DNA of 45,295 bases from Luminiphilus sp. (lineage in GTDB: Bacteria; Pseudomonadota; Gammaproteobacteria; Pseudomonadales; Halieaceae): positions 1 to 45,295 of the forward strand of contig JADHNP010000013.1 in NCBI GenBank assembly GCA_016779445.1. The letters are read 5' to 3'. Shown here piece by piece: positions 12,354 to 37,188 of the stretch. Numbering within the stretch: position 1 is the stretch's first letter; every line of letters begins with the position of its first letter. Position numbers and translations under genes: made by a program. A model generated the notes under the pieces. It saw only the letters and a program-made list of their open reading frames with translations. It made no database searches and was not told where the DNA came from.

Positions 12354-12366
12354 AGCTGAATATGAC

Positions 12367-12621: not shown

Positions 12622-12624
12622 TTA

Positions 12625-15585: not shown

Positions 15586-15586
15586 T

Positions 15587-16099
15587 ATGAGTGGATATAA
15601 CGCCAAGCTGGATGCAATTCCTCGCAAGGGTATGCTCGATTTGCGCGGCGACGCTGAAGCGGTGCGCCTGTGCGGTGAAACTCTTGGTTGCAGATTTCCT
15701 GAAGAAGCGAACGCCAAAATCGCCGTGTCTGATCACAGTGCGCTGATCTGCCTGAGCGATGATCATTGGATTTTTGAAACGGCGGATGGTCTTCAGGTGG
15801 AAATCCTGCAACAGCTCGAACTGGCCGCCGCAGACCAGTTCCACTCGTTCTGCGATGTTTCGGATATGTATGCCCATCTTGTGCTGTCGGGGCCGGAGGC
15901 GATAGAGGTGCTTGCCCAGTGCGTAGCAATCGACATCCATCCGCGTGTTTTCGGACCCGGTTCGACTGCCCGCTGCGCTTTTGCGGATACCGTTGCCCAA
16001 GTATCCTGTCTTGACAGCAGCCCGGCTTACGAAATCAGCGTACTCAGTTCCTATGAACGCTACTCGATTGACTGGTTATTAATGGCTATCGGGAGCTAA
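15587..16099 (+). CDS. soxG: Heterotetrameric sarcosine oxidase, gamma subunit
   Basis: A 170-residue gamma subunit with a degenerate GcvT/YgfZ-like fold. FHSFCDVSDMYAHLVLSGP and the final SYERYSIDWLLMAIG are typical of SoxG. The ATG at 15587 is chosen: it follows the soxA stop by one base. The open frame extends upstream inside soxA, but that part encodes no SoxG-like sequence. It completes the soxBDAG set, so the enzyme is predicted to be intact. Confidence 0.9.
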   Translation: MSGYNAKLDAIPRKGMLDLRGDAEAVRLCGETLGCRFPEEANAKIAVSDHSALICLSDDHWIFETADGLQVEILQQLELAAADQFHSFCDVSDMYAHLVLSGPEAIEVLAQCVAIDIHPRVFGPGSTARCAFADTVAQVSCLDSSPAYEISVLSSYERYSIDWLLMAIGS

Positions 16100-16142: not shown

Positions 16143-17270
16143 TTAGCCAAGGTTGACGCTGCTCCCTAGCCGATTCGCTATGTAGCGGTACATGTCATAG
16201 ATCGTACCTTCGAGGTCCGGCTTGGAGAGCCTGCCTGGCCTGTAGTAGCGGGATTGTAGCCCTTTCTGCAGCGTTTCTAGTTTCGCCTTATCCTCGAGAT
16301 TGACTGTATCCATAAAGGCTATCTGCTCGTCAGTGATGGGGTTATCCTCGTCCAGTGAAGACATCCCCCAGCGAATATTTACGGCACTACTGGAGTTTGG
16401 GCTGAGGCAGAGGTAGATAAGAATACTGGGTGCTGCAGCGACCACAAGGTTCGGAAAAGCACCGAACATAAACGAGCACCGCTTTTCTTTATCGGTCAGC
16501 TTGGGCGGAAAGGGGCCGCGTTCCGGATAGTCGGGATCATAATAGGAGTAATAAGCGTTAAAGTGGCCGTTCGAAGGCACGTGCTCACACAGTGCTGTAG
16601 GGGTCAGAGGCCGAAGCGTCTTTGGATGGGTTACGTCGAGGTGATAGCCCTCCATAAAATTTTCGGCGAGACACTTCCAGTTCGTATTCCACGTAGTCTC
16701 CTTGGCAAACGCGTATGGTCTTTTGCCAATTTCGTAGTTATCAATATAGGGTGCTAACGCCCCCAGTCTTGGAGCGAGTGGCGTGGCGTCCCCGGAGAGA
16801 TTCACAAAAAGAAAGCCCTGCCAGATTTCAGTCTTGAATGCGTGCAGCGCGCAGGAAGAAGGGTCAAATCCTTCGACGTCCTGCATGTGCGGTGCGCCCA
16901 CCAGTCGGCCTTTCAGGTCATAAGTCCAAGCGTGATAACTGCAGCTGAAACGAGATTGGTTTCCGGAGCCGGACGCGACGATGTTGCCGCGATGGCGGCA
17001 GACGTTAGATAAGACCGATATCTGGCCGTCCTTGCTACAGGTAACCAGGAGTGGCTCACCCACCAGACTGGTTGTGTAATACTGCCCCGGTGCGGCGACC
17101 TCGTCCGCTCGTCCCAGACACACCCATTCCTTCCTGAAAATGTGCTCTTCTTCCAGCTGTGTAAATGCGTCTGACGTGTAATACGCACTGGGCATCGCCT
17201 GCGCATGTTCCACTGGCGTGGAGTGAGTTAGATCAAGCGCCTTTCGGATTTTTTCCACATCCGCATTCAT
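16143..17270 (-). CDS. Rieske non-heme iron oxygenase, choline-monooxygenase/GbcA-like (oxygenase B)
   Basis: A 375-residue aromatic-ring-hydroxylating-type alpha subunit. Rieske ligands are CRH (Cys91, His93) and CSYH (Cys110, His113). The catalytic iron site is in NWKCLAENFMEGYH...TH (His210, His215). This layout resembles choline monooxygenase, GbcA and other betaine-acting Rieske enzymes, which remove N-methyl groups. The ATG at 17270 is chosen because GGGGGAG lies just upstream; an in-frame extension of 17 residues exists. It is convergent with soxG and divergent from the second MFS gene. N-demethylation of a betaine feeding SoxBDAG is a reasonable inference. No reductase is nearby. Confidence 0.9.
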   Translation of the reverse strand: MNADVEKIRKALDLTHSTPVEHAQAMPSAYYTSDAFTQLEEEHIFRKEWVCLGRADEVAAPGQYYTTSLVGEPLLVTCSKDGQISVLSNVCRHRGNIVASGSGNQSRFSCSYHAWTYDLKGRLVGAPHMQDVEGFDPSSCALHAFKTEIWQGFLFVNLSGDATPLAPRLGALAPYIDNYEIGKRPYAFAKETTWNTNWKCLAENFMEGYHLDVTHPKTLRPLTPTALCEHVPSNGHFNAYYSYYDPDYPERGPFPPKLTDKEKRCSFMFGAFPNLVVAAAPSILIYLCLSPNSSSAVNIRWGMSSLDEDNPITDEQIAFMDTVNLEDKAKLETLQKGLQSRYYRPGRLSKPDLEGTIYDMYRYIANRLGSSVNLG

Positions 17271-17331
17271 GTTCGCTCCCCCATGCTTTGGACAAAATAA
17301 CAATAACCGTGCTCTAATCAAAAGTAGACGG

Positions 17332-17347
17332 GGTGGTGCCCACCACC
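17332..17347. promoter_or_regulatory. Inverted repeat in the Rieske B / MFS2 divergent region
   Basis: Perfect repeat GGTGGTG-CC-CACCACC within the 143-base region between divergent starts 17270 and 17414. It could be an operator or an mRNA hairpin ahead of the MFS gene. Chance cannot be ruled out. Confidence 0.35.
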
Positions 17348-17413
17348 ATGCTAACAGCCCGGTTATGTCACGTCCGTGGGTATGTTGATGACGCCTCGCA
17401 GGAAATGTTCTTG

Positions 17414-18622
17414 ATGATCGGAAGTTACTCTCTTTTTTCGCAAAAACCCAGAACGGACGAAGAGGTCGCGGCGCAGATCAATCGCTACGCGACCATATCC
17501 TCCGCTATGTGGATGACTGTGGTCGGCACTCTGGGAATTTTATTTCTGCCGTTGATCGTCAGCGGACTCATTGACGATCTTGCTTTCACTAAGCAGCAGG
17601 CCGGTTACGTGGCGGCTGCCGAAATGGCCGGGGTGGCAATCCTGTCTGGCAGTGGCGTTTTTTGGGTGCGTCGGTTTGATTGGGTTGATGCTGCTGTTAT
17701 GGCGACATTGCTGTTCGTTGCCGCAAACGTTTTTTCTGCGCTAACCGACTCATTCGCTGGCATGTTTGCTTTCCGATTCCTGGTTGGTGCTTCCAGTGGC
17801 GCCTTGCTTGCCATCGGGCTCGCTTGCCAAAGTGACAGCAAGAATGCCGATCGGATATTCGGCTACTGGGTGGCCTGCCAGATGACGGTGTCCAGTATTG
17901 GTTACCTCTCGCTTCCTCTTGTCAGGTCCTCGTGGGGAACCAGCGGCATGTTTGTTGCCCTAGCACTAATAGGCGTGACCGCCATTATTTCGATCTACTT
18001 TCTTCCACGACGCGGCGTTATGCGCATGTCCTTGACTGCTGCACCCGCGCTCTTGAATGCGAACAACATTCTTGCACTCGTTGGAGCGCTACTGTTTTTT
18101 ACCGCGCAAGGCGGGATATGGGCTTTTGTCGAGAGACTGGGAATCGCCTCAAGACTATCGACAACTGAGATTAGCTTTGCTCTCGCAGTTTCCTCGTACT
18201 GTGGCATCGTGGGTGGACTGGCGCGAAACTGGATCGCCAACTTTATCGGCAGCGCTGGACCCTTCTATTTTGTCGTAGCAGGCGAGATTCTGATGCTATT
18301 GATGTTCGGGTTGGAGCATGGTCAGTTTCTGTATGCTCTTGCCGTATGCATGCTGCAGTTTTTCTGGGCTATGGGTATGGCGTCGCTGCTAGCGGGATTG
18401 AATATTATCGACGACTCTGGCCGACTGATTTTGTTGATGATGGCAACAGCGAAAGTCGGCTATTCAATGGGTCCGGCTTTGATGGGCTGGCTAATTTTTG
18501 ACGATGATTACACCTTCATGTTGGCGACGTCCGGCGCATGTGTCGTGATCGGCATGGTGATCTGTGTTGTCCTCGTCAATCAGAAATCCAGTACGCCGGC
18601 TGTCGCTTCGTCTGCCGATTAG
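17414..18622 (+). CDS. MFS transporter (second)
   Basis: A 402-residue inner-membrane protein with about 12 transmembrane segments and overall MFS character, for example FAFRFLVGASSGALLAIGLA in the first half. The canonical loop 2-3 motif is poorly preserved, so the subfamily is not assigned. The ATG at 17414 is chosen because AGGAA (17400-17404) lies nine bases upstream; earlier in-frame starts at 17333 and 17405 are less well placed. It is divergent from oxygenase B and its stop overlaps the stop of the convergent GntR gene. Being surrounded by catabolic genes, it likely carries the substrate or an intermediate. Confidence 0.85.
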   Translation: MIGSYSLFSQKPRTDEEVAAQINRYATISSAMWMTVVGTLGILFLPLIVSGLIDDLAFTKQQAGYVAAAEMAGVAILSGSGVFWVRRFDWVDAAVMATLLFVAANVFSALTDSFAGMFAFRFLVGASSGALLAIGLACQSDSKNADRIFGYWVACQMTVSSIGYLSLPLVRSSWGTSGMFVALALIGVTAIISIYFLPRRGVMRMSLTAAPALLNANNILALVGALLFFTAQGGIWAFVERLGIASRLSTTEISFALAVSSYCGIVGGLARNWIANFIGSAGPFYFVVAGEILMLLMFGLEHGQFLYALAVCMLQFFWAMGMASLLAGLNIIDDSGRLILLMMATAKVGYSMGPALMGWLIFDDDYTFMLATSGACVVIGMVICVVLVNQKSSTPAVASSAD

Positions 18623-19353
18623 AAATAACGTTTACCTGCAATTGTTGATGACATTACTTCCGCATCGACCGGCAACGGTCTTTCCAGTACCTGCAATACC
18701 TTTTTCCGGTATAGCGCGACGTCATGGTCAGCAATGTTACTGATTGCCCTGCAATCCCGTGTCTCCAATGCTGCAATAATCTCAGCGTGATCCAATTTCA
18801 ATACGGCGAAATGCGACTCCCAGTCATCGTCAATCAAGGATTTGTGAACAAGCGCTGACAGGCGTGAGCCGAATTCACGAAGTTTAATGTAGGAGTCGTA
18901 CAGAAATTTGTTCGAGCACCCCTCGGCGACCAGACCGTAAAACCTATCGTTTAGTTTTTTAATGGTCGCGATATCCTTATCAAGATAGGCAGTCGCGATA
19001 TCCTCTTCCACCCCCCTAATGGTGTCGATTTGGTCGCTGTCAATCCGACTGGCACTGAGAATAAAGATCGTTCTTTGAGTAATTTGATAAGCCTCAAAAA
19101 ATGCGCTGATTTCATCAAGCGTCAGCGTGCTTACATAAGCGCTGCGACGAGGCTCTATCGTTACAAGTTTGTCACCCGAAAGTCTCCGTAGCGCTTCTCG
19201 GACGGGCGTTCTGCTGACCTCAAAGCGTCTCATCAAGTCGCTTTCTTCCAGCAAGGATTCCGGTGGTATCTCGGCGTTTAGGATGTCTTCTTTGAGTGAC
19301 GTATAGATAGACTCCGCGAGGACTCTACTCGTGCTTCCAGCTACTTTAGTCAT
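18619..19353 (-). CDS. GntR-family regulator with FCD domain
   Basis: A 244-residue FadR-type regulator. The winged helix-turn-helix covers residues 12-75, with LMRRFEVSRTPVREALRRL as recognition region, followed by an all-helical FCD ligand domain. In FCD proteins a metal is usually held by Asp and three His, the first in a DxxxH arrangement. Here NDRFYG has Tyr139 at that place, while His residues in KLDHAEI and ADHDVA remain, so metal binding may be altered. It is the last gene of the creatininase2-GS-VOC-GntR unit and probably autoregulates it, together with the divergent Rieske C operon. Its stop overlaps that of the MFS gene. Confidence 0.92.
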   Translation of the reverse strand: MTKVAGSTSRVLAESIYTSLKEDILNAEIPPESLLEESDLMRRFEVSRTPVREALRRLSGDKLVTIEPRRSAYVSTLTLDEISAFFEAYQITQRTIFILSASRIDSDQIDTIRGVEEDIATAYLDKDIATIKKLNDRFYGLVAEGCSNKFLYDSYIKLREFGSRLSALVHKSLIDDDWESHFAVLKLDHAEIIAALETRDCRAISNIADHDVALYRKKVLQVLERPLPVDAEVMSSTIAGKRYF

Positions 19354-19360
19354 TATGAAA

Positions 19361-20335
19361 TTATTTTTGCGCTAGAGCATCGAGTACTTGGATACGGTAA
19401 CCATCTGGGTCTGAAAGATAGGCGGCCCGAGCACCACTGACTAGGTCGTGGTCCGATACTTTTGGCGAAATCCCCATTGCCTGTGCCCTCGAAAGCACAT
19501 CGTCAAGGTTTTCGCAGGCAATAGCCAGCCTTTCAAATCCTGATTTGTCACCAGTGTAATAACTGAAATCCGGGTCGTTTTCTGTTCCCCAGATGTGCTG
19601 CAACTCAAGTATTGTGTATGGACGACGCCAGAGCCACTCACGGTTGTCGATGTGATCAACGTCTGGTTCTGGTGGTGATTCATTTGTGGCCGCGAAAAAA
19701 TACAGTGTAAATTGCCTGGAATCTACGGTCTGTCTTGACAGCAAGCGCATTCCAAATAGGTTTTCATAAAAGTCCCGGCTCCTGTCAATGTCTCTGGCGC
19801 GCAACGTGATTAAGGAAAAAGTCGGTTTCGTTCCCAGAGGGAAATCGAGGCAAATTTGACCCACAGTATGATGATGCGCGAAGTCGTGCTGTATCAGCTC
19901 GATACAATAGCCATCAGGGTCAGAAAAATGGCACAGGTAGGCGATATCTGGTACTTGACGCGGGGTATCGACGTCGATGCCGAGAGCCAACAAACGATCT
20001 CTCGCGATGTCAACATCCCTTACCGCGATCGCAATTTTCCAATAGCCTTCCGACGGGTCGGGCTGCTTGGCAACCGTGGCTGGCGGTTGTGATGGCCGGT
20101 GTGCCAGCACCAAAAAGCAGTTATTTCCGGGCACAGCCAGCGAAGCTTCTTCCCCGGTTTTTGCCTGTTCTTTGCTGTCGTACGCCAACACATAGTGGGT
20201 GTCATCGCCATCGCAATGTTGACTTATCAGTGTGAAACCAAGCTTATCGGTATAGAAAGGAAGGCTTTCAGACGGCTCAGAAATTCGCAGCACATGTTGC
20301 GCGAGGCTGATTTGGGGCAATCGGTCAGGTGCCAT
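19361..20335 (-). CDS. Two-domain VOC protein, glyoxalase I-like
   Basis: A 324-residue protein with two vicinal-oxygen-chelate domains (about 8-150 and 165-320). Both end with a SDPDGY motif (DPDGYCIELIQ and DPDGYRIQVL), and the second contains ILELQHIWGTEND, close to the glyoxalase I consensus. Fused glyoxalase I of yeast type has this arrangement. Metal ligand candidates are His14, Glu in CIELI and Glu in LELQH. Possible reactions are a glutathione-dependent isomerisation or an extradiol-type cleavage; the former is better supported. It sits seven bases before the GntR gene and 21 bases after the GS-like gene in one operon. Confidence 0.8.
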   Translation of the reverse strand: MAPDRLPQISLAQHVLRISEPSESLPFYTDKLGFTLISQHCDGDDTHYVLAYDSKEQAKTGEEASLAVPGNNCFLVLAHRPSQPPATVAKQPDPSEGYWKIAIAVRDVDIARDRLLALGIDVDTPRQVPDIAYLCHFSDPDGYCIELIQHDFAHHHTVGQICLDFPLGTKPTFSLITLRARDIDRSRDFYENLFGMRLLSRQTVDSRQFTLYFFAATNESPPEPDVDHIDNREWLWRRPYTILELQHIWGTENDPDFSYYTGDKSGFERLAIACENLDDVLSRAQAMGISPKVSDHDLVSGARAAYLSDPDGYRIQVLDALAQK

Positions 20336-20356: not shown

Positions 20357-21793
20357 TCAAAACCGCCGCAAGTAATGATGGTATTCCCAATCTGATACGT
20401 GGTTTTGGTAGCTCAGCCATTCCAGGCGCTTTGTTTCTGTCCAAGCGGTAAACATTTCATCTCCGAATACTGTTCGGCCAAGAGGATCGCTTTCGAACTC
20501 ATCAATGGCTTCCGCTAATGTTCTCGGCAGCCACCTCACGCCCGCAGCTTCCCTTTCACGGTCCGATTTCAGGTAGAGATTTTCCCTGTGAGGTGAGCCC
20601 GGATCTATTCCCTCTGAAATTCCCTCGAGGCCCGCGGCAACCATCATCGCAATTCCGAGATAAGGATTGCAGGCGCTGTCCGCAGATCGTAGTTCGATGC
20701 GGCCTCCACCTGAAGGAATGCGAACCGTGTTGGTTCGGTTGTTGTTGCCATACGAAACAAAACACGGTGCCCAGGTATAGCCTGAGCTGCTGCCTTTCAT
20801 TATCAGGCGTTTGTAGCTGTTAACCGTTGGTGCAGCAATAGCCTGAATTGCCGGCAAATGCTTCATGACACCACCAACGAACTGGTACCCCAGCTCAGTG
20901 AGCCCGCAGCCCCTTGGGTCTTCGTTTTGTCCGACGTCAAACAGGTTTTGACCGTCCTTGGTGGCAAGTGACACGTTGTAGTGCGCACCGCTACCCGCTT
21001 TATCAGCAAACGGCTTTGGCATGAATGTCGAGTAGGCACCGTATTTACGGGCGATTTCGTGGGTCATCACTCTTAGGAAGACAAAGCGGTCTGCCATGGT
21101 CAGTGCATCGGTATAGTCGAAGTCAATTTCGAACTGCCCGATGCCATCCTCGTGATCGAAAGAATAAACGTCCCACCCGAGTTCATTCATTGCATCGACA
21201 GTGTCACCCATCCAGCGGTCGAGATTGTCCATGAGTCGCACTGCATCGTAGGCTGGTTTCTCGAGGTTCTGAAGTGTGCTGACAGGGCAGAGTGATGCGT
21301 CGTCGTCCTGGAAAACGAAGAACTCAGCTTCGATCCCGCAGTTGACCTGAAAACCCATTTCGCTGGCTTTCTTCAATACTCTTTTCAGGATACCGCGGCT
21401 GCACGGAGGAAACGGCTGTTGCTGATAGTGCAAATCGCTGGCGAACCAGGCACTGTCGTTCCGCCAGGGTACTATCATGCATGAGTCAGGGTCCGGATGC
21501 GCCGCCACTTCGTCGTCTGCGACGTCCTGTGGCACTCCGTCAAGTGCCGCACCGGTGAATAGCTCAGACCCCGATAGCATGCGTTGTAGATGCGCAATTG
21601 GCACCATTTTTGTTTTCGGTATTCCGTGCATATCGACAAAAGCCGGAATGAGATACTTGACCTCGTTTCTCGCCAGCTTTTCCGCCAGGCTCTCGGTTAT
21701 TTGATCATTCACGCCAAATTCCTTTGATTTACCGTCGCTTCTTAATAAAAGCATCAGTGATTGAATAGAGGAATGGTCGGTGCTACCGCCCAT
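20357..21793 (-). CDS. GlnT/GMAS-type glutamine synthetase-like ligase
   Basis: A 478-residue glutamine-synthetase-superfamily enzyme. Visible motifs are GIEAEFFVF (153-161, metal glutamates), DHEDGIGQFEIDF, KPFADKAGSGAHYNVSL (ATP-binding histidine loop), SYGNNNRTNTVRIP and RIELRSADSACNPYL. The pattern matches GlnT (type III-like) and gamma-glutamylmethylamide synthetase, not housekeeping GlnA. It probably ligates glutamate to an amine, or ammonia, using ATP. The start is ambiguous: ATG 21793 lies four bases after the creatininase gene's stop, but a GTG at 21712 has a better AAGGAA site and would give about 451 residues, the family's normal size. The operon context suggests amine activation in the island's pathway. 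Confidence 0.88.
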   Translation of the reverse strand: MGGSTDHSSIQSLMLLLRSDGKSKEFGVNDQITESLAEKLARNEVKYLIPAFVDMHGIPKTKMVPIAHLQRMLSGSELFTGAALDGVPQDVADDEVAAHPDPDSCMIVPWRNDSAWFASDLHYQQQPFPPCSRGILKRVLKKASEMGFQVNCGIEAEFFVFQDDDASLCPVSTLQNLEKPAYDAVRLMDNLDRWMGDTVDAMNELGWDVYSFDHEDGIGQFEIDFDYTDALTMADRFVFLRVMTHEIARKYGAYSTFMPKPFADKAGSGAHYNVSLATKDGQNLFDVGQNEDPRGCGLTELGYQFVGGVMKHLPAIQAIAAPTVNSYKRLIMKGSSSGYTWAPCFVSYGNNNRTNTVRIPSGGGRIELRSADSACNPYLGIAMMVAAGLEGISEGIDPGSPHRENLYLKSDREREAAGVRWLPRTLAEAIDEFESDPLGRTVFGDEMFTAWTETKRLEWLSYQNHVSDWEYHHYLRRF

Positions 21794-21796
21794 CTC

Positions 21797-22552
21797 TCAC
21801 GATAGGGGCGCTTCCTCCACAAGTGCCTTTTCCAGCAGCGAGGCGAGGGAAATCACGCAGCTTTCCAGAACGAATTGCCCCTGTTCCTCTGTCCCCTTGC
21901 TCCCTTCACCCACGCCGCCGCAGTGGCTTTCCTTGTCAACGGTGTAGGAAAAGAAGCAGTCTGCCGAGCGATTCGGTTCGTCCTGAGCCTTCGCCATGTT
22001 TACGAGGTCAGGGCGCAAATGCATCATCAAGGAGGTCTCTGCGTTATTCGCGTGCCAGTTGTCGCCCGCATCTGCGGTATAAAAAGCCTCTACGTCCTCC
22101 GTCAACTCCCATATCGAACGCAGTGCGATCTTCATATCTGGAATATCGTTACGAATATTTTCCAGGGCACAGCGTAACGGCGCAAAGTTGGTGACGTGGC
22201 CATTGAGAATGAGAAAACGCTTGTACCCTGCAGAACTCACCCACTCAGCAAGTTCGGAGATAATAGTGGCGAGTGTTTGGGGGCGGAGTGGCAGGGTACC
22301 GGGCCACTTTTTGGAGTGTCCAAGTGAACAGCCGTAGGCTATTGGCGGTAGCATCGGTATGCCCGTTTTGGCGGATACCCCCGAGGCGATGGCCACTGCG
22401 GAAATCGTATCGACGCCTGTGGGAAGGTGCAGCCCGTGCTGCTCGGTGGCACCGACCGGGAGAATGACCATGTCCATCCCCGAGTCACGAATGGCAGCAA
22501 TTTCCTCCCAACTCAGCTCGTCCCACAGCACCGGCTTTTGATTTTCTAGCAT
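21797..22552 (-). CDS. Creatininase-family amidohydrolase (copy 2)
   Basis: A 251-residue creatininase-family metal hydrolase. Ligand motifs are GATEQHG (Glu37, His39), Asp48 in GVDT, NGHVTN (His119) and WHANNAETSLM (His167, Glu172). The position two after the NGH histidine is Thr, where true creatininase has Glu, so the substrate is probably not creatinine. The ATG at 22552 is used because GGAGAGGA lies just upstream; an 11-residue in-frame extension exists. It is first in the operon with the GS-like ligase, VOC protein and GntR regulator. It is clearly diverged from copy 1 and so likely acts on a different cyclic amide. Confidence 0.86.
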   Translation of the reverse strand: MLENQKPVLWDELSWEEIAAIRDSGMDMVILPVGATEQHGLHLPTGVDTISAVAIASGVSAKTGIPMLPPIAYGCSLGHSKKWPGTLPLRPQTLATIISELAEWVSSAGYKRFLILNGHVTNFAPLRCALENIRNDIPDMKIALRSIWELTEDVEAFYTADAGDNWHANNAETSLMMHLRPDLVNMAKAQDEPNRSADCFFSYTVDKESHCGGVGEGSKGTEEQGQFVLESCVISLASLLEKALVEEAPLS

Positions 22553-22634
22553 AGTCCTCTCCAAGTATCGGGAGTGTCGCATCAAGACGCATCCGCAGGT
22601 ACTTGCGTCCCTGCAGCAATCTCGTTACGTTACG

Positions 22635-22649
22635 TATACATCAAGTATA
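22635..22649. promoter_or_regulatory. Candidate operator in the creatininase2 / Rieske C divergent region
   Basis: Perfect inverted repeat TATAC-ATCAA-GTATA in the 137-base space between divergent starts 22552 and 22690, next to tandem GTTAC repeats. GntR/FadR-type sites are short AT-rich palindromes of this sort, and a GntR gene ends the leftward operon. Binding is inferred. Confidence 0.45.
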
Positions 22650-22689
22650 TGAAAGTCTCCACCGTTTTATAGCTGAGGAAGTCATCAAT

Positions 22690-24039
22690 ATGAAGCAACG
22701 GCTAACGGAACCTTATCAAGGCTATTTCAGGCAGCAAAATCTGCAACCGGATCTGGAAATAACACAGACGGGACCGAAGACGCCTGGTGGTGAATATTTG
22801 CGCCGGGCCTGGCAGCCCGTAGCCCTATCTGAAGAGGTCGGAGAGCATCCATTACTGGTTGAGATAATGGGCGAGGAATTGGTTCTCTTCAAAACAACGA
22901 AGGGTGTCTATGGGCTCATCGAAAAGCATTGCGCGCATCGCGGTGCGTCACTGGAATACGGTATTGCCACCGACAAGGGGATAAGGTGCTGTTACCACAG
23001 TTGGCTGTTTGCACCGGATGGCAGGATACTCGAAACGCCAAATGCGCCCTGTGGCGTGACTCTCGACAACTTCTTTCATGGCGCCTATCCCGTCGAAGAG
23101 TATAAGGGCATCGTGTTCGCCTATATGGGGCCGCCAGATACAAAGCCGGACTTCCCTGTGCTGGATACCTATAACGACTATCACGGCGAAGAAAGCCAAA
23201 TGGTTCCATACTCGCTGCACTACCCATGTAACTGGCTGCAGATTGCAGAAAATACCCAGGATCCGATTCACAGTTGCTTTTTACATACCTCGGTCAGCGG
23301 CACCCAATTTGATGACTCCTGGGGCGTGATACCGACAATTGACTGGGTCGCTACGCCCTATGGAATGATGAACGTCAATCTCCGTCGATGGGAGGACAAT
23401 ATATGGTTGCGAACGACCGAAACAATATTGCCTAACTACAATCAGGCAGGGGCTTTCTGGGAGCGACCCGACGAAGAAAAGGCCTTTCAGCGGGTCGCAA
23501 TGACGCGTTTTTTCAGGCCGATCAACGATACTGAAACCCAGGTCATGGGGTGGCGTTTCTTTAACGACGTTGTTGATCCACAGCATAAGGGCGACCCAGG
23601 TGCTGTGGGTAAAGAAAAAATGGACGCGATAGGTCAGTTGGATGACCGGGACTATTTGAGTCAGCAAAAAGAACCGGGCGACTTTGAGGCCATCACATCC
23701 CAGGGGCGCATTAACATCCATGACCGGGAAACGCTGTTGGTGTCTGATCGTGGCGTTTCGATGATGCGAAAACTGGTGCGAAAAGGTGTTCAAGCCGTTC
23801 GCGACGGGGAAGAATTTGTATCATTGCCGCGTCATTTCTCGGGCGTTATTCCCACGTTTACACAGGACTCGGTTGCCAGGCGGCCGGCGCTAGAGGGTGT
23901 GGACGACGACAAACTGATCCGCGAATACGGTTTGCGATATGCACAAATCGTTATCGAGTCAGCCAAATCAAGCCCAGACGAGCGCCGAGACTACCTGCAG
24001 GAAAAGCTCAATGAGCTCGATATCCAGAGCGTTGAATAA
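22690..24039 (+). CDS. Rieske non-heme iron oxygenase, phthalate 4,5-dioxygenase-like (oxygenase C)
   Basis: A 449-residue Rieske oxygenase of the phthalate-dioxygenase/CARDO-like class. Rieske ligands are CAHR (Cys81, His83) and CCYH (Cys100, His103). The catalytic motif is NWLQIAENTQDPIHSCFLH with Asn188, Asp191, His194 and His199. ATG 22690 is chosen with GAGGAAG upstream; the frame is open 29 codons further but without homology. It is first in an operon with the Gfo/Idh/MocA dehydrogenase and 5-oxoprolinase-like gene. It may hydroxylate or demethylate a ring compound. No reductase is encoded here. Confidence 0.92.
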   Translation: MKQRLTEPYQGYFRQQNLQPDLEITQTGPKTPGGEYLRRAWQPVALSEEVGEHPLLVEIMGEELVLFKTTKGVYGLIEKHCAHRGASLEYGIATDKGIRCCYHSWLFAPDGRILETPNAPCGVTLDNFFHGAYPVEEYKGIVFAYMGPPDTKPDFPVLDTYNDYHGEESQMVPYSLHYPCNWLQIAENTQDPIHSCFLHTSVSGTQFDDSWGVIPTIDWVATPYGMMNVNLRRWEDNIWLRTTETILPNYNQAGAFWERPDEEKAFQRVAMTRFFRPINDTETQVMGWRFFNDVVDPQHKGDPGAVGKEKMDAIGQLDDRDYLSQQKEPGDFEAITSQGRINIHDRETLLVSDRGVSMMRKLVRKGVQAVRDGEEFVSLPRHFSGVIPTFTQDSVARRPALEGVDDDKLIREYGLRYAQIVIESAKSSPDERRDYLQEKLNELDIQSVE

Positions 24040-24074
24040 TAACGATCCGTCCATTCTCTAACAGGAATTCACGC

Positions 24075-25121
24075 ATGCTTCGATGTGCAATTGTCGGTTT
24101 GGGAAGGTGGGGCCAGCTGCTGGTCAATTCATGTATGGAGCGGGGAGAGCCAAAGGGAAATGCCCTGGTCTTTACCCACGCAGTCGTCAGGTCGGCCGGG
24201 AAATACGATGAGTATTGCAGCCAACAGTCATTAACGGCGGTAACCGATTACCAGCGTCTGGTGGAGAGTCACGATATCGACGCTGTTGTGCTCGCAACGC
24301 CGCACAGTCAGCACTTTGAGCAGATCATCACAGCGACGGCACACAACAAGCACATTTTTGTGGAGAAGCCATTCACCATGGGGGCGGAAAACGCCCGTAA
24401 TGCTGCAGAAAGTGCGCAAAATGCCGGCGTTATTATTGCCGTTGGACACAACCGGCGTTTTCTTCCGGCTCTTCAGGAGCTGAGGGCTATGATCGACGCA
24501 GGCAAGTTGGGAACAATTACCCACATGGAGGGAAACTTTTCGGGTCCCTTTGCGCTTGGTTACGAATCATCGATGTGGCGTGCGAACGCTGACGAGAGTC
24601 CGGCCGGAGGAATGACTGCGATGGGGATACACATTGTTGATGCACTCATTTACCTTGGCGGCCCGATCGCCGGCGTCAATGCGCAGAGCCAAGGCTCGGT
24701 ACTAGATGTCGACATCGACGATACAACATCTGTACTGATGCGCTTTGAGAACGGGATATCAGCCTATCTGAGTACATTGTGTGCGACGGCAAGGCAGTGG
24801 CGGCTGCAGGTCTTTGGGACTCAGGGCTGGGCACAGTTGCGCGATCATCACATTCTTGATTTCTGTCCCGTGGGCCAGCAAGAAGCGAAGACGACCACTT
24901 ATGCGCCAGTTGATATTGAACGAGCTGAGCTGGAGGCTTTTGCCGGTGCTTGCCGGGGCGGAAAGCCCTATCCAGTAACGTTGGAGGAGGCGGTTCACGG
25001 CATCGCCGTGCAGGATTCAATCATTGAGTCGGCAGCTACACCTTCGCCCCTCTATCCAGTAGAACGGCAGGGTGGCTTTCATCCGCCTTCCCGCAGTGAT
25101 CGACCGTTCACAAAAAAATAA
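24075..25121 (+). CDS. Gfo/Idh/MocA-family oxidoreductase
   Basis: A 348-residue NAD(P)-dependent dehydrogenase. The Rossmann motif VGLGRWG (7-13) opens the protein, VEKPF (Glu97, Lys98) is the conserved active-site element of the family, and a second alpha/beta domain follows with GGMTAMGIHIVD (catalytic-region Asp and His). Typical substrates are sugars and inositols, but some members reduce imines or ketones. It lies 35 bases after oxygenase C behind an AGGAA site and 64 bases before the oxoprolinase-like gene, so it is a likely pathway step between ring oxidation and amide hydrolysis. Confidence 0.88.
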   Translation: MLRCAIVGLGRWGQLLVNSCMERGEPKGNALVFTHAVVRSAGKYDEYCSQQSLTAVTDYQRLVESHDIDAVVLATPHSQHFEQIITATAHNKHIFVEKPFTMGAENARNAAESAQNAGVIIAVGHNRRFLPALQELRAMIDAGKLGTITHMEGNFSGPFALGYESSMWRANADESPAGGMTAMGIHIVDALIYLGGPIAGVNAQSQGSVLDVDIDDTTSVLMRFENGISAYLSTLCATARQWRLQVFGTQGWAQLRDHHILDFCPVGQQEAKTTTYAPVDIERAELEAFAGACRGGKPYPVTLEEAVHGIAVQDSIIESAATPSPLYPVERQGGFHPPSRSDRPFTKK

Positions 25122-25185
25122 CCACCTGAAGAACCATTTTTTAGTGCTTGCTCGCCATCGCATACGTCTTTTGGAGATTAGCTGA

Positions 25186-28100
25186 ATGACAGATCATCAC
25201 GCCGGTTCTGCATGGGAATTTTGGATTGACCGGGGCGGCACCTTTACCGATATTGTTGCCCGACGTCCGGACGGCACGACGGCTATTCACAAGTTGCTGT
25301 CTGACAACCCCGAGCAATATCGCGATTCAGCAGTGCAGGGTATCCGAGACATTCTTGGCGTCGAGCAGACCGATAAGGTGCCAATTGAAAAAATTCGCGC
25401 GATCAAGATGGGCACAACTGTCGCAACAAATGCGCTCCTAGAGCGGAAAGGTGAGCCGACGCTACTCCTGACTACAAAAGGTTTTCGCGATGCGCTCCGT
25501 ATTGGTTATCAAAATCGCCCCGATTTATTCGCGCTCAACATCGAGCTTCCGGAGCAGCTTTACGCCGCAGTCCAAGAGGTCGATGAGCGTATCACCGCAA
25601 GTGGTGAAGTCCTGGTCGCACTGGACGAGTCTGGTGCCCGAGCCAGTCTGCAAAAATTTTATGATCAGGGACTACGCAGCGTAGCAATTGCCCTGATGCA
25701 CGGATACCGTTATCACGATCATGAAATTCGGCTTCTTGAGTTGGCGCAGTCTATAGGTTTTTCCCAAGTATCTGCGAGCCATCGTGTCAGCCCGCTCATG
25801 AAATTTGTGTCACGGGGCGATACGACTGTGGTCGATGCGTACCTGTCACCGATACTGCGCCGTTACGTCGAACAAATCTCCTCGGAGTTTGACGGGCTCG
25901 CCAGTCACAGTGGGCGCCTGAAGTTCATGCAGTCGAACGGCGGACTCACCGACGCTAGGTATTTCGATGGGAAAGACGCTATTTTGTCGGGCCCGGCAGG
26001 TGGCGTAGTCGGCATGGCTCGAGTCTGCGAAATTGCTGGTTTTGACAGGGTCATTGGTTTCGATATGGGAGGAACATCCACGGACGTCAGCCACTATGGC
26101 GGTGAGTTCGAGAAGGTGTTCCATGCCAATGTGGCAGGTGTCCGTATTCGCGCGCCGATGATGTTGATTCATACGGTGGCGGCAGGTGGCGGGTCGAAAC
26201 TCCATTTTGATGGAGCGAGATACCGGGTTGGCCCTGATTCTGCGGGCGCTCACCCCGGGCCAGCCAGTTACCGCAACGGAGGGCCGCTGACCGTTACCGA
26301 TTGTAATGTCATGCTCGGCAAGCTGCAGCCTCAGCTGTTCCCAAAAATATTTGGTCCAGGGGCAAACCAGGCTCTCGATAAGGACGCCTGTGCCGCCAAG
26401 TTCAGCGAACTCGCCGAAGCCATCCGGTTGGAAACCGGGAATGATCGCTCTCCCGAACAGGTTGCCGCAGGATTTCTAGAGATTGCGGTACAGAATATGG
26501 CGAATGCGATTAAAACAATTTCGGTACAGCGAGGCTACGACGTCACCACCTACACGCTCTGCTGTTTTGGTGGTGCCGGTGGCCAGCACGCCTGTTTTGT
26601 GGCCGACGCACTCGGCATTAGCCGTATATTTTTACATTCTTATGCGGGCGTTTTATCTGCTTATGGCATGGGTTTGGCAGACACAATTGTCAGCCGTCAT
26701 CAGGCGGTAGAAGCGATTTTTGATAGTGACCTGATGAACGAGCTCGGAGTGGTTTACGAGGACCTCGAAAGACAGAGCAGGGAGGAACTGGCAGAGCAGG
26801 GAGAGGCAGGCGAAAAAATCTCTGTGAAGCGGTCTGTGCATCTCCGTTACGAGGGGTCGGATACGGCGATTATTGTCAACGGGGACGAATTCGATGACGT
26901 TGTTTGTGAGTTTGAAAAACTGCACAAAATGCGCTTTGGCTTTATTTCGCCTAACAAGAACCTCATTGTCGAATCCGTAGAAGTTGAAGCGATCGCGATG
27001 GCCGCCTCTGTTCGTATCGAAGCCCATGGCGACACACAGGATTGTTCAGAAAAGAAAATAGAAAGTATTGAGTGTTTCATGGAGGATCGGTGGCGCACGA
27101 CTCCGGTATACGAACGAGCATTCCTGTCCCCAGAGTTAATGATTGATGGGCCTGCTGTCATCCTCGACCCTGTCAGTACGATAGTCGTTGAACCCGGTTG
27201 GCGTTGCAGTACGACAACGGGTAACGACATCATTCTCGAGCGTTTCCGAGAAAAAGAAGACGATACATCGACGGGCGAGACAGTCGATCCGGTGATGCTC
27301 GAGGTATTCAATAACCTGTTCATGTCCATCGCAGAACAAATGGGCGTTGTTCTCGAGAACACGGCTGCGTCAGTTAACATCAAGGAGCGGCTGGATTTTT
27401 CCTGTGCGATATTCGCTCCAGACGGGTCACTGATTGCCAATGCGCCGCATATGCCCTCGCACCTTGGGTCGATGGGGGAGACGATAAAGACAGTCATTCG
27501 TGAACGTGAGGGCGATATTAATGCAGGCGACGCCTACATTCTGAATGCACCATACAATGGCGGTACCCACCTGCCCGACGTAACGATAGTAAAGCCGATT
27601 TTTTCTGTCGAGGGTAAGTTGCTATTTTATGTCGCATCGCGGGGTCATCACACTGACATCGGCGGCACAGTGCCTGGTTCTGCGCCTGCAAATTCGACGA
27701 GTATCGAAGAGGAAGGGATTCTTATCGATAACTTCTTGCTTGTTGAGAATAATAACTTTCGTGAAGACGAGATTTACAATGTGCTGACTGCCGGCAAGTG
27801 GCCTTCACGCAATCCGGAGATGAATATTGCGGACTTCAAGGCTCAGTTGGCAGCGTGTGAAAAAGGAGCCTATGAACTCGGTCTCATGGTCGAACATTAT
27901 GGTGCCGATACCGTCCATTCCTACATGCGTCACGTTCAGGACAATGCTGAAGAGGCGATTCGCCGGGTTTTGGAGACACTGGAGGACGGTAGTTTTGAGT
28001 ACGAAATGGACTGTGGCAGCAAAATTTGCGTGTCCATAGCGGTGGACCGAGAAAAACGCGAGGCCACGGTTGATTTTGCGGGCACCAGTGCCCAACACCA

Positions 28101-28812
28101 GGGGAACCTGAACGCGCCCAAGGCCGTCGTTTACGCTGCCGTGCTGTATACATTTCGCTGCCTCGCGCGGGACAAGATCCCCCTCAATGAGGGCTGTCTC
28201 CGGCCATTGAACGTTCTGATCCCAGATAACAGCATGATCAGCCCTGAATATCCGGGCGCCGTCATATCAGGCAATACTGAAACCGCTCAGGCCCTGGTGG
28301 GCACCTTATTTGGTGCCTTGCGGGTTGCCGCCTCGTCGCAAGGGACAATGAACAACTTTATCTGGGGTAATGAGGAATTCCAGTACTACGAGACAATCTG
28401 CGGCGGATCGGGCGCAACCCCTGATCACGATGGTGTCGACGCTGTACAGACGCACATGACCAATTCCCGGCTCACCGACCCCGAAATACTCGAGTGGCGC
28501 TTTCCAGTTCTGCTGGAATCTTTCGAAATTCGCCACGGTTCTGGTGGTAATGGTAAGCGGAAGGGCGGCAACGGTGTTGTGCGACGCGTCAAATTCCTAT
28601 CCGATTTTAAAGCCAACGTCCTATCCGGGCACCGCCGAATTCCGCCGTATGGGTTAGATGGTGGGGAGAGCGGGGAAAACGGAGTGAACTTCGTCGAACA
28701 TCATGACGGATCAGTGACGCAGCTATCGGGTATGGATCAGATCGCGCTACAACCCGGGGACGTCTTTGTGATCAAGACCCCCGGCGGAGGGGGTTACGGG
28801 GAGAAAAAGTAG
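25186..28812 (+). CDS. Fused 5-oxoprolinase / hydantoinase A-B (ATP-dependent)
   Basis: A 1208-residue protein combining HyuA (about 1-690) and HyuB (about 700-1205) in one chain, as in bacterial and eukaryotic 5-oxoprolinase. The N-terminal FWIDRGGTFTDIVARRPDG and internal HTVAAGGGSKLHFDGARYR are highly characteristic of OplAH; NAPYNGGTHLPDVT marks HyuB. Known reactions are ATP-driven opening of 5-oxoproline to glutamate and, in related enzymes, hydantoin or N-methylhydantoin hydrolysis. The start has GGAG upstream. It is last in the oxygenase C operon. With a glutamate ligase and sarcosine oxidase in the same island, either 5-oxoproline or an N-methylated lactam or hydantoin is a reasonable substrate. 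Confidence 0.93.
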   Translation: MTDHHAGSAWEFWIDRGGTFTDIVARRPDGTTAIHKLLSDNPEQYRDSAVQGIRDILGVEQTDKVPIEKIRAIKMGTTVATNALLERKGEPTLLLTTKGFRDALRIGYQNRPDLFALNIELPEQLYAAVQEVDERITASGEVLVALDESGARASLQKFYDQGLRSVAIALMHGYRYHDHEIRLLELAQSIGFSQVSASHRVSPLMKFVSRGDTTVVDAYLSPILRRYVEQISSEFDGLASHSGRLKFMQSNGGLTDARYFDGKDAILSGPAGGVVGMARVCEIAGFDRVIGFDMGGTSTDVSHYGGEFEKVFHANVAGVRIRAPMMLIHTVAAGGGSKLHFDGARYRVGPDSAGAHPGPASYRNGGPLTVTDCNVMLGKLQPQLFPKIFGPGANQALDKDACAAKFSELAEAIRLETGNDRSPEQVAAGFLEIAVQNMANAIKTISVQRGYDVTTYTLCCFGGAGGQHACFVADALGISRIFLHSYAGVLSAYGMGLADTIVSRHQAVEAIFDSDLMNELGVVYEDLERQSREELAEQGEAGEKISVKRSVHLRYEGSDTAIIVNGDEFDDVVCEFEKLHKMRFGFISPNKNLIVESVEVEAIAMAASVRIEAHGDTQDCSEKKIESIECFMEDRWRTTPVYERAFLSPELMIDGPAVILDPVSTIVVEPGWRCSTTTGNDIILERFREKEDDTSTGETVDPVMLEVFNNLFMSIAEQMGVVLENTAASVNIKERLDFSCAIFAPDGSLIANAPHMPSHLGSMGETIKTVIREREGDINAGDAYILNAPYNGGTHLPDVTIVKPIFSVEGKLLFYVASRGHHTDIGGTVPGSAPANSTSIEEEGILIDNFLLVENNNFREDEIYNVLTAGKWPSRNPEMNIADFKAQLAACEKGAYELGLMVEHYGADTVHSYMRHVQDNAEEAIRRVLETLEDGSFEYEMDCGSKICVSIAVDREKREATVDFAGTSAQHQGNLNAPKAVVYAAVLYTFRCLARDKIPLNEGCLRPLNVLIPDNSMISPEYPGAVISGNTETAQALVGTLFGALRVAASSQGTMNNFIWGNEEFQYYETICGGSGATPDHDGVDAVQTHMTNSRLTDPEILEWRFPVLLESFEIRHGSGGNGKRKGGNGVVRRVKFLSDFKANVLSGHRRIPPYGLDGGESGENGVNFVEHHDGSVTQLSGMDQIALQPGDVFVIKTPGGGGYGEKK

Positions 28813-33024: not shown

Positions 33025-34290
33025 GTGACAATAAAACGCCTTTCTCGCATAGCCCTCTTGGCCGCGGCGCTACTGCCTGTAGCGCACCTGACTTCTTTGG
33101 GAGTGATGGAGGCGAGTGGTTTTATCTTGCTGGTGGCGAGTGGCGCGCTTTTTGCTTTGGAGTCCAGTGTGAATCCCTCGGCCTCGCTGGAGAGAATTCA
33201 CTCTGGCGCCGCTATGCCTATTGTGGGATACGCCGCTTTGACCCTGCTAAGCATCGGTGTGATGTTGGACCAGCCTCATGATCAGATAGCTGCGCTCCGC
33301 GAACTCAAATGGGTGCTCTATTTTTTTGCCTTTTTGTACTTTTTTGACCGTTTTTGGAGCGACGCGTGGAGGCGCTATATTCCTGTGCTGTCGAGTGCCG
33401 TGGCATTGATGGGACTCTTCGGACTTTGTCAGTTTGTATACGGGTGGGAATGGCCGCGACCAGAGTCAGTTTTGTCACCTTGGGGCGAGTACTTTCGTGT
33501 AACTGGATTTTTCAATCAGCCCCAATCCTTTGCTGGTAACTTGGGCATGGCAACATTGTTTTTGCTGGGCTTCACAATGAGTCATTTTGAAAGGGGATCG
33601 AGAGTCGTCGAGAATCCACCTTTTCATCTGCTGGCATTCGTGATCATGGGCTTGCTAGGTGTCATACTCACGTTGACACGTTCCGCTTGGCTCGGTGCTG
33701 CTGTCGTAGCGGTGCTCGCGTTCGGCCGAGTCAAAACAAGTTGGGGTGCTATTACCCTCGTGGTTTTCCTGGTGCTTACGGGTATAGGTTGGTATTCCGG
33801 CTCGCCATTCAGCGACAGATTATCAAGCGATGTAAGCGTCAACGAAGAGAGTATCGAGATTCGCCAAGAGCTATGGGAGGCTAATTGGCGTATGTTTCAG
33901 GACTCTCCCTATTTAGGGATTGGGCCGGGTCAGAATCTCAGTCGGCTTGAAGAGTATTACCAAGAGGCCGAGGTTGAATATGGGATTATTGACCGGGCGC
34001 ACAACAACATATTGGAGCATCTGGCTGGCCAAGGCCTCTTTGTAGCGGGCTTCTATTTGATCTTCTCAGGTTATTTTCTATGGGCAGCTTATTGCGTCTC
34101 AGTTCGGCAGGACGCAGATCGCTTTGTGAGAAGTATCGGCGCAGGGAGTCTTTGTGCTCAGGTTTATTTTCATATTTTAGGGTTGGTGGATAGCAATTTC
34201 TTTGATCAAGAGGTCAAAAATATTATCGTGTGGGTCTGGGCACTGACTGCTGCTGCGTATGGCCGCAATAGAGAGCCTGCCGTAACCTGA
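33025..34290 (+). CDS. O-antigen ligase / Wzy-type polysaccharide membrane protein
   Basis: A 421-residue inner-membrane protein with about ten to twelve hydrophobic segments. The Wzy_C domain is visible: LTLTRSAWLGAAVVAVLAF, then a large periplasmic loop (residues about 250-340) with GIGPGQN and DRAHNNILEHLAGQGLF, whose His is a signature of O-antigen ligases. It joins O-antigen to lipid A-core, or polymerises it. The start is GTG 33025 with GGGAGA upstream. It lies at the edge of the core-biosynthesis locus, which favours the ligase (WaaL) role over polymerase, but sequence alone does not decide. Confidence 0.85.
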   Translation: MTIKRLSRIALLAAALLPVAHLTSLGVMEASGFILLVASGALFALESSVNPSASLERIHSGAAMPIVGYAALTLLSIGVMLDQPHDQIAALRELKWVLYFFAFLYFFDRFWSDAWRRYIPVLSSAVALMGLFGLCQFVYGWEWPRPESVLSPWGEYFRVTGFFNQPQSFAGNLGMATLFLLGFTMSHFERGSRVVENPPFHLLAFVIMGLLGVILTLTRSAWLGAAVVAVLAFGRVKTSWGAITLVVFLVLTGIGWYSGSPFSDRLSSDVSVNEESIEIRQELWEANWRMFQDSPYLGIGPGQNLSRLEEYYQEAEVEYGIIDRAHNNILEHLAGQGLFVAGFYLIFSGYFLWAAYCVSVRQDADRFVRSIGAGSLCAQVYFHILGLVDSNFFDQEVKNIIVWVWALTAAAYGRNREPAVT

Positions 34291-34400
34291 AGAGCTGAAG
34301 TCACTCTGGCTGCAACTCACTGACTTAGCGCTAGAAATTGGCAGATCGATAGGCTATTCATCGTGGTGGGGTCAAATCGTATACCCTTTGCCTATTCTTG

Positions 34401-35165
34401 CTACTGAATATAAGACTCGGAAGCCAATTCTGACAAAGTGAAGACGGTGTTTTTGAGCGCGAAGGCGTTCAACGGGTTTTGAGCAGCATAATAATTGAAG
34501 ATGCGGTCGGCCTGCAGATGCACAGGCGTTTGATATGTCACAAATTTCTCAGCCGCCGATGCGGACACTGCATAGGCGTGTGCGCCGAGCACCTTGCCCA
34601 TCTGATAGACGTCCGGTGAGTGGGATCGCATGCAGATGTTGTCGATCCAACTTCGGCTGACCTTATGCCAGTTGGCGACCCGTAGGTAATGAAACCCCAG
34701 GTAGATCTGCTGTTGGAGACGGTAGCGTAGAGTCGGCAGCTTGTGGCCATAGTAGCCCAACATCAACAGTTCCCAATCTTCGGGTAGTTGCCCAATAACA
34801 CTGTCAAAGTATTGCAGTTGGTCAGGTTGCGGTAGGACGTCATCTTCCAGAATCAGTATCCGCTGATGCCCCTCATCCAACATGTTTTGATAGATATTGC
34901 GGTGAGACAAGGCGCAGGCGACCTCTCCCAGATTCATTGAACGTGAGGTTCTCTTGGTGTGTCTGTGCGCTACATCGTCATAGATTTGTTGTTCTATCAC
35001 CTGTGTGGAGGAGTAGTCCTTCTTATCTGTTCCCCAGAAATAACACCAGTTGAGCCCATCTAGTACCTTGGCGACATTGGCATGTCGTGCGGTAGTGTGG
35101 GGCAGACTCAATACATAAATCTTGTCGAAATACCGATTCAGCGGTTGGAATATATCTGGCGTCAT
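34401..35165 (-). CDS. Glycosyltransferase family 25 (LPS core)
   Basis: A 254-residue GT25 enzyme, the family of Haemophilus/Neisseria LOS galactosyl- and glucosyltransferases. It begins IYVLSLPHTTARHANVAKVL and contains GEVACALSHRNIYQ and the acidic ILEDDVLP, all hallmark GT25 motifs. ATG 35165 is preferred because it starts 20 bases after the preceding GT2 gene; a GTG at 35234 would overlap that gene. It probably adds a hexose to the outer core at the cytoplasmic membrane. Confidence 0.88.
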   Translation of the reverse strand: MTPDIFQPLNRYFDKIYVLSLPHTTARHANVAKVLDGLNWCYFWGTDKKDYSSTQVIEQQIYDDVAHRHTKRTSRSMNLGEVACALSHRNIYQNMLDEGHQRILILEDDVLPQPDQLQYFDSVIGQLPEDWELLMLGYYGHKLPTLRYRLQQQIYLGFHYLRVANWHKVSRSWIDNICMRSHSPDVYQMGKVLGAHAYAVSASAAEKFVTYQTPVHLQADRIFNYYAAQNPLNAFALKNTVFTLSELASESYIQ

Positions 35166-35185
35166 CGCACTACTAAGGCTATTGG

Positions 35186-35968: not shown

Positions 35969-36243
35969 GAAAATGAGTATAAGGTATTTCGGTAATTTCA
36001 TTCGCGTCATCAACTTACCAATCGAGGTTTGACTATCAGGCTCATGCGGGCGCTCGTTAGGGCGTCTTGGTGGTTCGATGGACATCGCGCCGGAGCATGA
36101 TGCGAGAAGCCGTCTGCACCACAGTGTTGTGATTCCCGCGCTCCAGCTAGGGCATAACGAGCTTGGAAATTCGAGCCGTTGAAATCGCCCCTTTCAGTCA
36201 AAAAAGGCTACTATCTATGTAAAGGAAAGGCAGTGAATTAAAG

Positions 36244-37161: not shown

Positions 37162-37188
37162 TGTGCCGATACACATTGTGCGGGAATA

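Follow-up and report, generated by a model that had tools for sequence, protein, structure and literature searches.

Known systems and the Luminiphilus locus

The locus described here is a divergent gene block of Luminiphilus sp. encoding a glutamine synthetase-like ligase (GS), a creatininase-family hydrolase (creatA) and a fused 5-oxoprolinase-type enzyme (OPLAH), and its closest described relatives come from several systems. In the N-methylglutamate pathway, the γ-glutamylmethylamide synthetase GmaS is a GlnT-type protein that has catalytic Asp, Glu and Arg residues and is devoid of Asp50′ and the flap Glu. The aniline and 1-naphthylamine glutamylation systems, as described in PMC11335346, combine a GS-like ligase with a glutamyl-amide hydrolase and a Rieske oxygenase. 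Guanidine carboxylase operons are controlled by Guanidine-I and Guanidine-II riboswitches (PMC12186494). Finally, the γ-glutamyl cycle includes a fused 5-oxoprolinase with Hydantoinase_A and Hydantoinase_B in one chain, and creatininase is the creatinine amidohydrolase.

We analyzed a window of 45,295 bases, which is the whole contig JADHNP010000013.1 of a 2.47-Mb draft genome (G000) that is 86.8% complete. Positions 1-28812 represent an uncharacterized catabolic island of ~29 kb that is common to two bacterial families and probably serves the breakdown of a methylated nitrogen compound. We consider the chances about even that, in such a pathway, GS and creatA act on a γ-glutamyl bond and OPLAH recycles any 5-oxoproline. 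Gene content, gene order, conservation, residue signatures and the pairing of GS with a hydrolase are the observations behind this reading. The preliminary description of this DNA had placed a GlnT-type ligase and a fused 5-oxoprolinase in divergent gene sets sharing one control region, and this arrangement was confirmed by the open reading frames (ORFs), their Pfam and NCBIfam assignments, and a 137-bp intergenic region.

The GmaS features named above all recur in the window GS, but its amine pocket is S/D/F rather than Q/N/W, its genome has no MgsC-type match, and its partner belongs to the creatininase family. The ligase, hydrolase and Rieske oxygenase of the aniline-type systems have counterparts in the window, whereas the partner hydrolase is not glutamine-amidotransferase-like, no reductase was recognized beside the oxygenase RieskeC, and OPLAH is added. 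The guanidine carboxylase operons share the GS clade, which lies in or beside these operons with several creatA-GS pairs; in contrast, the window has no match to the carboxylase, DUF1989 or arginase-type proteins. The one-chain architecture of OPLAH is that of fused 5-oxoprolinases, although its gene lies in a catabolic island. The island may operate by means of a glutamate-carrier ligase together with a hydrolase, and these comparisons do not establish that it belongs to the aniline, isopropylamine, GmaS or guanidine systems. A tie to the isopropylamine and aniline routes had been proposed earlier; instead, the GS clade proved to be tied to guanidine operons.

Conservation of the gene block and the island

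A scan of genome contigs with GS retrieved 563 GS relatives, of which the best 80 were analyzed as loci; nine further regions, eight of them reached via creatA, bring the set to 89 GS loci. The best 80 include close kin (Marinobacter, Arthrobacter), hence their counts are not independent events, and some loci are short contigs, which limits the flank counts. The seven-gene block GntR-VOC-GS-creatA / RieskeC-Gfo-OPLAH is retained with the same order and orientation in two of the best 80 loci, the Woeseia metagenome-assembled genomes L003 and L004, although in L004 OPLAH is cut by the contig end. Since seven genes share order and orientation in both loci, their arrangement is not a matter of chance. 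The block proteins of the window and L003 are 46-79% identical.

The L003 contig carries 21 of the 22 compared window genes located before position 28812, the exception being a LysR regulator, and this recurrence on one contig defines a shared catabolic island. Six compared genes beyond 28812 have no match on the Woeseia contig; therefore, we placed the island end at this position. The preliminary description had missed the reach of the island back to the window start. Outside the seven-gene block, gene order differs between the window and Woeseia. A second Woeseia genome also has a soxA ortholog (65% identity).

In a survey of 58 genomes (the window's own, 36 of its genus and 21 of its order), only the window's own genome contained GS at E≤1e-60, and the same held for OPLAH at E≤1e-150. 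Woeseia represents another family; in the family of L003, to which the window's genome does not belong, three genomes out of 107 have GS at E≤1e-120, and one of these reaches 60% only. The island is rare and has probably moved between families, while its base composition (GC 53.0 vs 52.0%) gives no foreign mark. Its conservation in two families points to an unrecognized route by which a methylated nitrogen compound is broken down.

The divergent control region occupies positions 22553-22689 (137 bp, assigned to neither strand) between the start codons of creatA (ATG, 22552) and RieskeC (ATG, 22690), both of which were fixed by their conservation in Woeseia. The creatA ORF reaches 22585, and the ATG at 22552 is preceded by a ribosome-binding-site-like sequence. 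A dyad TATAC-N5-GTATA at 22635-22649 is a candidate operator of the GntR/FCD-type protein encoded in the block (18619-19353, minus strand; Pfam; 56-57% identity in L003 and L004), which is likely a local regulator. The exact dyad is absent from L003 and L004, where the aligned stretch holds GTATAC-N16-GTATAC.

The GS ligase

GS (478 aa; 20357-21793, minus strand) matches the Pfam family Gln-synt_C (E 1.4e-97) and the NCBIfam model TIGR03105, 'type III glutamate--ammonia ligase', with 528.7 bits against a cut-off of 469.6, which assigns it to the GlnT family. Its top two PDB matches are the glutamate--methylamine ligases 9qur (the best) and 7cql, ahead of any glutamine synthetase entry. We equated 7cql with RhGmaS, since the loop and the residues that PMC7948447 names fit it at an offset of 20; in RhGmaS, D177, E186 and R312 are catalytic, and Q175, N188 and W189 belong to the pocket. 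In the alignment with the PDB sequences, the catalytic trio is preserved in GS as D213, E222 and R353. The ammonia-specific residues are replaced, Asp50′ by T80 and the flap Glu by W341 (Ala and Trp in RhGmaS), so GS is devoid of the marks of glutamine synthetase (GSI). Because the catalytic residues of GmaS are kept and the ammonia-specific ones are gone, the acceptor is likely of the amine type, in line with the original proposal.

The pocket residues Q175, N188 and W189 of RhGmaS correspond to S211, D224 and F225 of GS, which therefore does not have the GmaS pocket. The S/D/F combination was found in 90 of 92 aligned GS proteins, and two GmaS-type proteins have Q/N/W; proteins with internal stops, those whose alignment covered at most 380 query residues, and the duplicate loci L124-L133 were omitted from this survey. 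Close GS orthologs (75-76% identity) occur in other gene settings, beside an arginase-family gene in L005 and clustered with an ABC transporter, an amidase, AllG, a RieskeC relative and an aldehyde dehydrogenase in L006.

Could the block GS simply be the GmaS that handles methylamine from the island? The best PDB match, 9qur, and the canonical N-methylglutamate genes adjoining the island in Woeseia would fit such a function. However, besides the different pocket, Woeseia G058 and G059 as well as G061 (where the copy contains one in-frame stop) have separate gmaS homologs in addition to the block GS; thus, the block GS is not the GmaS of these genomes. In the window genome, at its 86.8% completeness, no match to the Woeseia GmaS is better than the block GS itself, no MgsC-type match was detected, and PF01645 gives only a 1511-aa frame of glutamate synthase size and a 27-bit match. 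We regard this identity as very unlikely.

The NCBIfam name, and GS relatives in guanidine operons, whose pathway frees ammonia, would suit a normal glutamine synthetase for the assimilation of ammonia from the island pathway. The loss of both Asp50′ and the flap Glu, together with four further GS-family matches in the window genome, makes this function quite improbable. Overall, the residue comparison renders both identities, plain glutamine synthetase and GmaS, unlikely.

In G058, gmaS-mgsCBA and mgdABCD directly follow MFS2, these names being given from sequence resemblance, gene order and PF01645. On the Woeseia contig (L122), this gmaS-mgsCBA and mgdABCD-type set adjoins the MFS2 homolog of the island at ~2347238-2357417. 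Such a neighborhood suggests that the island substrate may release methylamine.

Partner hydrolases of GS

The creatA gene (21797-22552, minus strand) belongs to the Creatininase family (PF02633, E 4.1e-61) and is separated from the GS start by 3 nt on the same strand. By using creatA alone as a query against 369 genomes of the window's class (E≤1e-55), we obtained nine matches including its own, and in all nine GS is located directly downstream. The GS proteins next to the other eight are 48-59% identical to the window GS. Additional creatA-GS pairs were identified in L047 (an actinobacterium by its title), L054 and L064 (Stenomitos). In searches of the open literature, the listed titles and beginnings of abstracts, for some searches a minor share of the matches, include no publication on the creatA-GS pair, which is not proof of novelty.

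Within 2 kb of GS, the 89 loci contain creatA (13 loci), an α/β hydrolase resembling MetX (60 loci) or neither (16 loci), and both hydrolases never occur together; among the best 80 loci, the α/β hydrolase is found in 59. Since this GS clade usually adjoins creatA or the MetX-like hydrolase, a ligase-plus-hydrolase module is likely. The MetX-like hydrolase and GS form an uncharacterized pair (for example, 8836-10089 in L038), often with a Guanidine-I riboswitch nearby.

The residues Glu48, His50, Asp59 and His130 of creatA occupy the places aligned with those of creatininase. On the other hand, the NGHYEN motif of creatininase is replaced by NGHVTN in the GS-linked creatA proteins, from which creatB, a second creatininase-family protein of the island, differs (13 sequences including the window's own, L138 excluded). 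The score for the creatininase model TIGR04448 (134.9 bits) is below the cut-off of 235, and Thr132 occupies the place of Glu122, which we take to be a metal ligand in creatininase. In the FastTree phylogeny, the window GS clusters with loci that neighbor the α/β hydrolase or neither hydrolase (local support 0.984; L003 and L004 are exceptions), apart from other creatA-paired GS proteins, the other nodes being weak. It looks as if the window GS lineage was re-paired with creatA.

The preliminary description had suggested that the creatininase-family partner could act on a glutamylated intermediate, and the constant adjacency of creatA and GS makes this its strongest part. For removal of the glutamyl group, creatA is the better candidate.

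Link to guanidine operons

Several GS loci are guanidine operons that encode an ABC transporter, creatA, GS, DUF1989, a 1200-aa biotin-dependent carboxylase and allophanate hydrolase. Operons of this kind are described without creatA and GS in PMC12186494, whose main text contains neither 'glutamine' nor 'creatin'. Homologs of the carboxylase are present in the flanks of 31 of the 89 GS loci (two of them, at 38%, are possibly other carboxylases) and DUF1989 in 28; seven loci in each count come from the creatA-fetched set.

We scanned the window and 35 loci using the Rfam profiles for two guanidine riboswitches. Ten of the 35 loci scored above the gathering threshold for Guanidine-I (L013, L014, L021, L036, L078, L080, L081, L134, L135 and L141) and six for Guanidine-II (L081, L134, L136, L137, L139 and L141). 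A Guanidine-I covariance model, built on eight sites of five loci that match by construction, detected 46 sites in 32 of the 89 loci, or 29 of the best 80, and gave the same ten positives among the Rfam-scanned loci; the rough background is one of 14 well-known control genomes. In L134, L135 and L141, the aptamer heads a same-strand gene run with creatA and GS. In the Marinobacter loci, the Guanidine-I aptamer lies on the strand opposite to GS, hence its nearness does not imply control of GS itself.

Genes named 'type III glutamate--ammonia ligase' are easily read as nitrogen-assimilation or methylamine genes. This label is probably wrong for the S/D/F-pocket clade because of the different pocket, the usual adjacent hydrolase and the guanidine riboswitch near about a third of the loci. 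The proximity of the riboswitch also offers a candidate substrate for the clade.

According to the Rfam profiles, neither Guanidine-I nor Guanidine-II is present in the window, L003 or L004. Guanidine-I is absent from all six island or ortholog genomes, whereas Guanidine-II was not searched genome-wide. Likewise, no homologs of the guanidine-operon carboxylase, DUF1989 or arginase-type proteins were found in the window or in an 84-kb Woeseia stretch. The lack of riboswitches and operon homologs weakens a direct carry-over of the guanidine link to the window.

Creatinine is a cyclic acylguanidine. It can be speculated that the S211/D224/F225 clade makes γ-glutamyl guanidine or γ-glutamyl N-alkylguanidines and thus represents a third guanidine route, besides the known carboxylase and guanidinase routes, with the creatininase-family or MetX-like partner processing the acylguanidine. 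The island would then re-use this pair on a natural product of the guanidino or N-methyl kind, and the oxoprolinase would close a catabolic glutamate-carrier cycle. We regard this extended scenario as unlikely.

The oxoprolinase and the proposed pathway

OPLAH (1208 aa; 25186-28812, plus strand) contains Hydant_A_N, Hydantoinase_A, Hydant_A_C and Hydantoinase_B in one chain, which is the architecture of a fused ATP-dependent 5-oxoprolinase. Residues D737, H795, D798 and H821-822 fit the spacing of the CapB metal site given in PMC8453981, a correspondence by spacing and not by alignment with CapB. Among the genomes of 16 of the best 80 GS loci, six that lack the island encode full-length one-chain homologs (54-59% identity); after these, the identity of full-length relatives drops to 30-33%. 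Plasmid homologs reach 58.6%; 421 plasmid records were matched, and the two that were opened contain no GS relative. 5-Oxoproline is a likely substrate. However, the one-chain N-methylhydantoinase 7hk5 ranks first among the 10 PDB matches (465.6 bits), which include no fused oxoprolinase; since 7hk5 also has one chain, this form alone is no proof of a 5-oxoproline substrate. A lysine said in PMC8453981 to split oxoprolinases from lactamases had no identifiable position in our alignment and was left aside. A resemblance of OPLAH to the human 5-oxoprolinase was given no weight.

In the proposed pathway, whose reactions, substrate, co-transcription and OPLAH role are our predictions, a methylated nitrogen compound would be taken up via the TonB-dependent receptor and two MFS carriers. 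Its methyl groups would be stripped or oxidized by three Rieske oxygenases and the sarcosine-oxidase-type soxBDAG complex. GS would use ATP to link the γ-carboxyl of glutamate with a nitrogen of the amine or guanidine type. creatA, encoded directly upstream of GS on the same strand, would hydrolyze the γ-glutamyl acyl-amide or acyl-guanidine bond, with glutamate acting as a carrier. Finally, OPLAH would turn 5-oxoproline back into glutamate, whether it comes from cyclized γ-glutamyl intermediates or from the substrate itself.

Several observations weigh against this scheme, and the oxoprolinase step is its weak link. Only two of the 89 other GS loci have OPLAH in their flanks, and no OPLAH ortholog was found in the L005 and L006 draft genomes (best match 31-33%). 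The GGACT family (PF06094) is present in neither G000 nor G058, which has a complete island, although it occurs in Woeseia G059, and the ChaC family was not searched. With regard to the hydrolases, creatA is present in only five of the best 80 GS loci (eight of the 89 were reached via creatA) and is rare in the cyanobacterial phylum, where the single match in 292 genomes is that of L054 itself. The top matches of the MetX-like protein are homoserine O-acetyltransferases; this partner resembles an acyltransferase and may be no deglutamylase. No Rieske reductase was recognized in a Pfam scan of 35 window ORFs, which did not extend to the remainder of the genome.

The same evidence bears on a full carrier cycle, in which GS glutamylates an amine, RieskeC oxidizes the product, 5-oxoproline leaves spontaneously or by creatA-mediated cyclization, and OPLAH regenerates glutamate. 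GS, creatA and OPLAH do form one conserved block in three genomes, OPLAH groups with the one-chain homologs, and in the 58-genome survey it occurs only together with the island. Nevertheless, the near absence of OPLAH from other GS loci, its lack in the genomes of close GS relatives and the missing GGACT family make this cycle doubtful. No enzyme for glutamyl loss as 5-oxoproline was identified in the window genome or G058, although spontaneous cyclization or creatA could perform this step. Of the glutamate-carrier interpretation given earlier, the amine-type acceptor and the paired hydrolase found support, whereas the exit of the glutamyl group as 5-oxoproline was not supported.

Alternatively, OPLAH may share the pathway with GS but have no part in its reaction, opening a lactam, a hydantoin or 5-oxoproline derived from the island substrate. 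Three oxygenases and the sarcosine-oxidase-type complex could yield a lactam, OPLAH is mostly not near GS, and the wider family includes hydantoinases and a caprolactamase (PMC8453981). This option is possible but somewhat doubtful, as OPLAH falls into the 54-59% one-chain group apart from the 30-33% group, and the one-chain form is said in the same text to mark oxoprolinases, which favors 5-oxoproline.

Other genes of the island and its neighborhood

Two further genes of the plus-strand arm precede OPLAH. RieskeC (22690-24039; PF00355, E 4.9e-15; 71% identity in both L003 and L004) has an intact Rieske motif and D..H....H site, and its PDB matches include 7fhr, a putative phthalate 4,5-dioxygenase. 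A Gfo/Idh/MocA-type dehydrogenase is encoded at 24075-25121 (plus strand; Pfam/NCBIfam; 70% in L003, 63% in L004). On the minus strand, the run creatA-GS-VOC-GntR includes a two-domain VOC protein of the glyoxalase/extradiol type (19361-20335; PF00903, E 1.3e-25; 46-49% in L003 and L004), which scores 134.8 with TIGR00068 (cut-off 120) and whose structure matches are lactoylglutathione lyases.

RieskeC relatives were matched in 16 plasmid records; those of Aminobacter, Rhodococcus and Caballeronia adjoin PDR/VanB reductases, and the six inspected stretches contain no GS or OPLAH relative. In the Ruegeria conchae plasmid NZ_CP081104.1 (L116) and in L006, RieskeC relatives (41-44%) are accompanied by two ~210-aa unknown proteins, DUF1116/AllG, an amidase and an aldehyde dehydrogenase; our guess is that these are homarine-type genes. 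The R. conchae cluster, with its RieskeC relative, DUF1116, amidase and sox genes, was the source of homarine as a candidate island substrate, and PMC13390433 mentions Mgd in homarine breakdown. This candidate was set aside as a lead only, since the DUF1116 and amidase genes are not among the scanned island genes.

The remaining island genes lie upstream of the block, with identities given for Woeseia. The TonB-dependent receptor (7-2199, plus strand), cut by the contig start, is 80% identical, the top value among the large proteins of the island; it is followed at its 3′ side by a TPR-sulfotransferase protein (58%), and the pair spans 7-4352 on the plus strand at the outer island end. Next are CMD0 (4591-5160, plus strand; 82%) and a family-less 364-aa protein (5189-6283, minus strand; 57%) with no match in Pfam, NCBIfam or PDB sequences; its AlphaFold model, built on a two-row alignment, has a mean pLDDT of 44. 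A likeness of this protein to dihydroxypyridine dioxygenase was considered as a guess and is not put forward. The genes creatB, outside the GS-paired subfamily, and MFS1 (6280-8381, minus strand) are 71% and 72% identical.

The VanA-like RieskeA and a CMD/AhpD-type protein (9633-11121, plus strand; 68% and 67%) precede the soxBDAG-like sarcosine-oxidase-type operon (11118-16099, plus strand; 73, 60, 66 and 47%). Its soxD is an 84-aa ORF (12367-12621) between soxB and soxA, below the 100-aa limit of the ORF list. The soxB, soxA and soxG products fall under the curated NCBIfam cut-offs, and soxB, soxD and soxA are only 32-40% identical to the separate mgd-type set of Woeseia. RieskeB (16143-17321, minus strand; 69%) is a Ring_hydroxyl_A-type oxygenase, with the glycine betaine monooxygenase as the closest NCBIfam model at a score far under its cut-off. 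It is followed by the MFS2 transporter (17333-18622, plus strand; Pfam; 60% on the Woeseia contig). Past the island, the window contains lipopolysaccharide-type genes at 33025-40347, including an O-antigen ligase, glycosyltransferases, and Kdo transferase and kinase.

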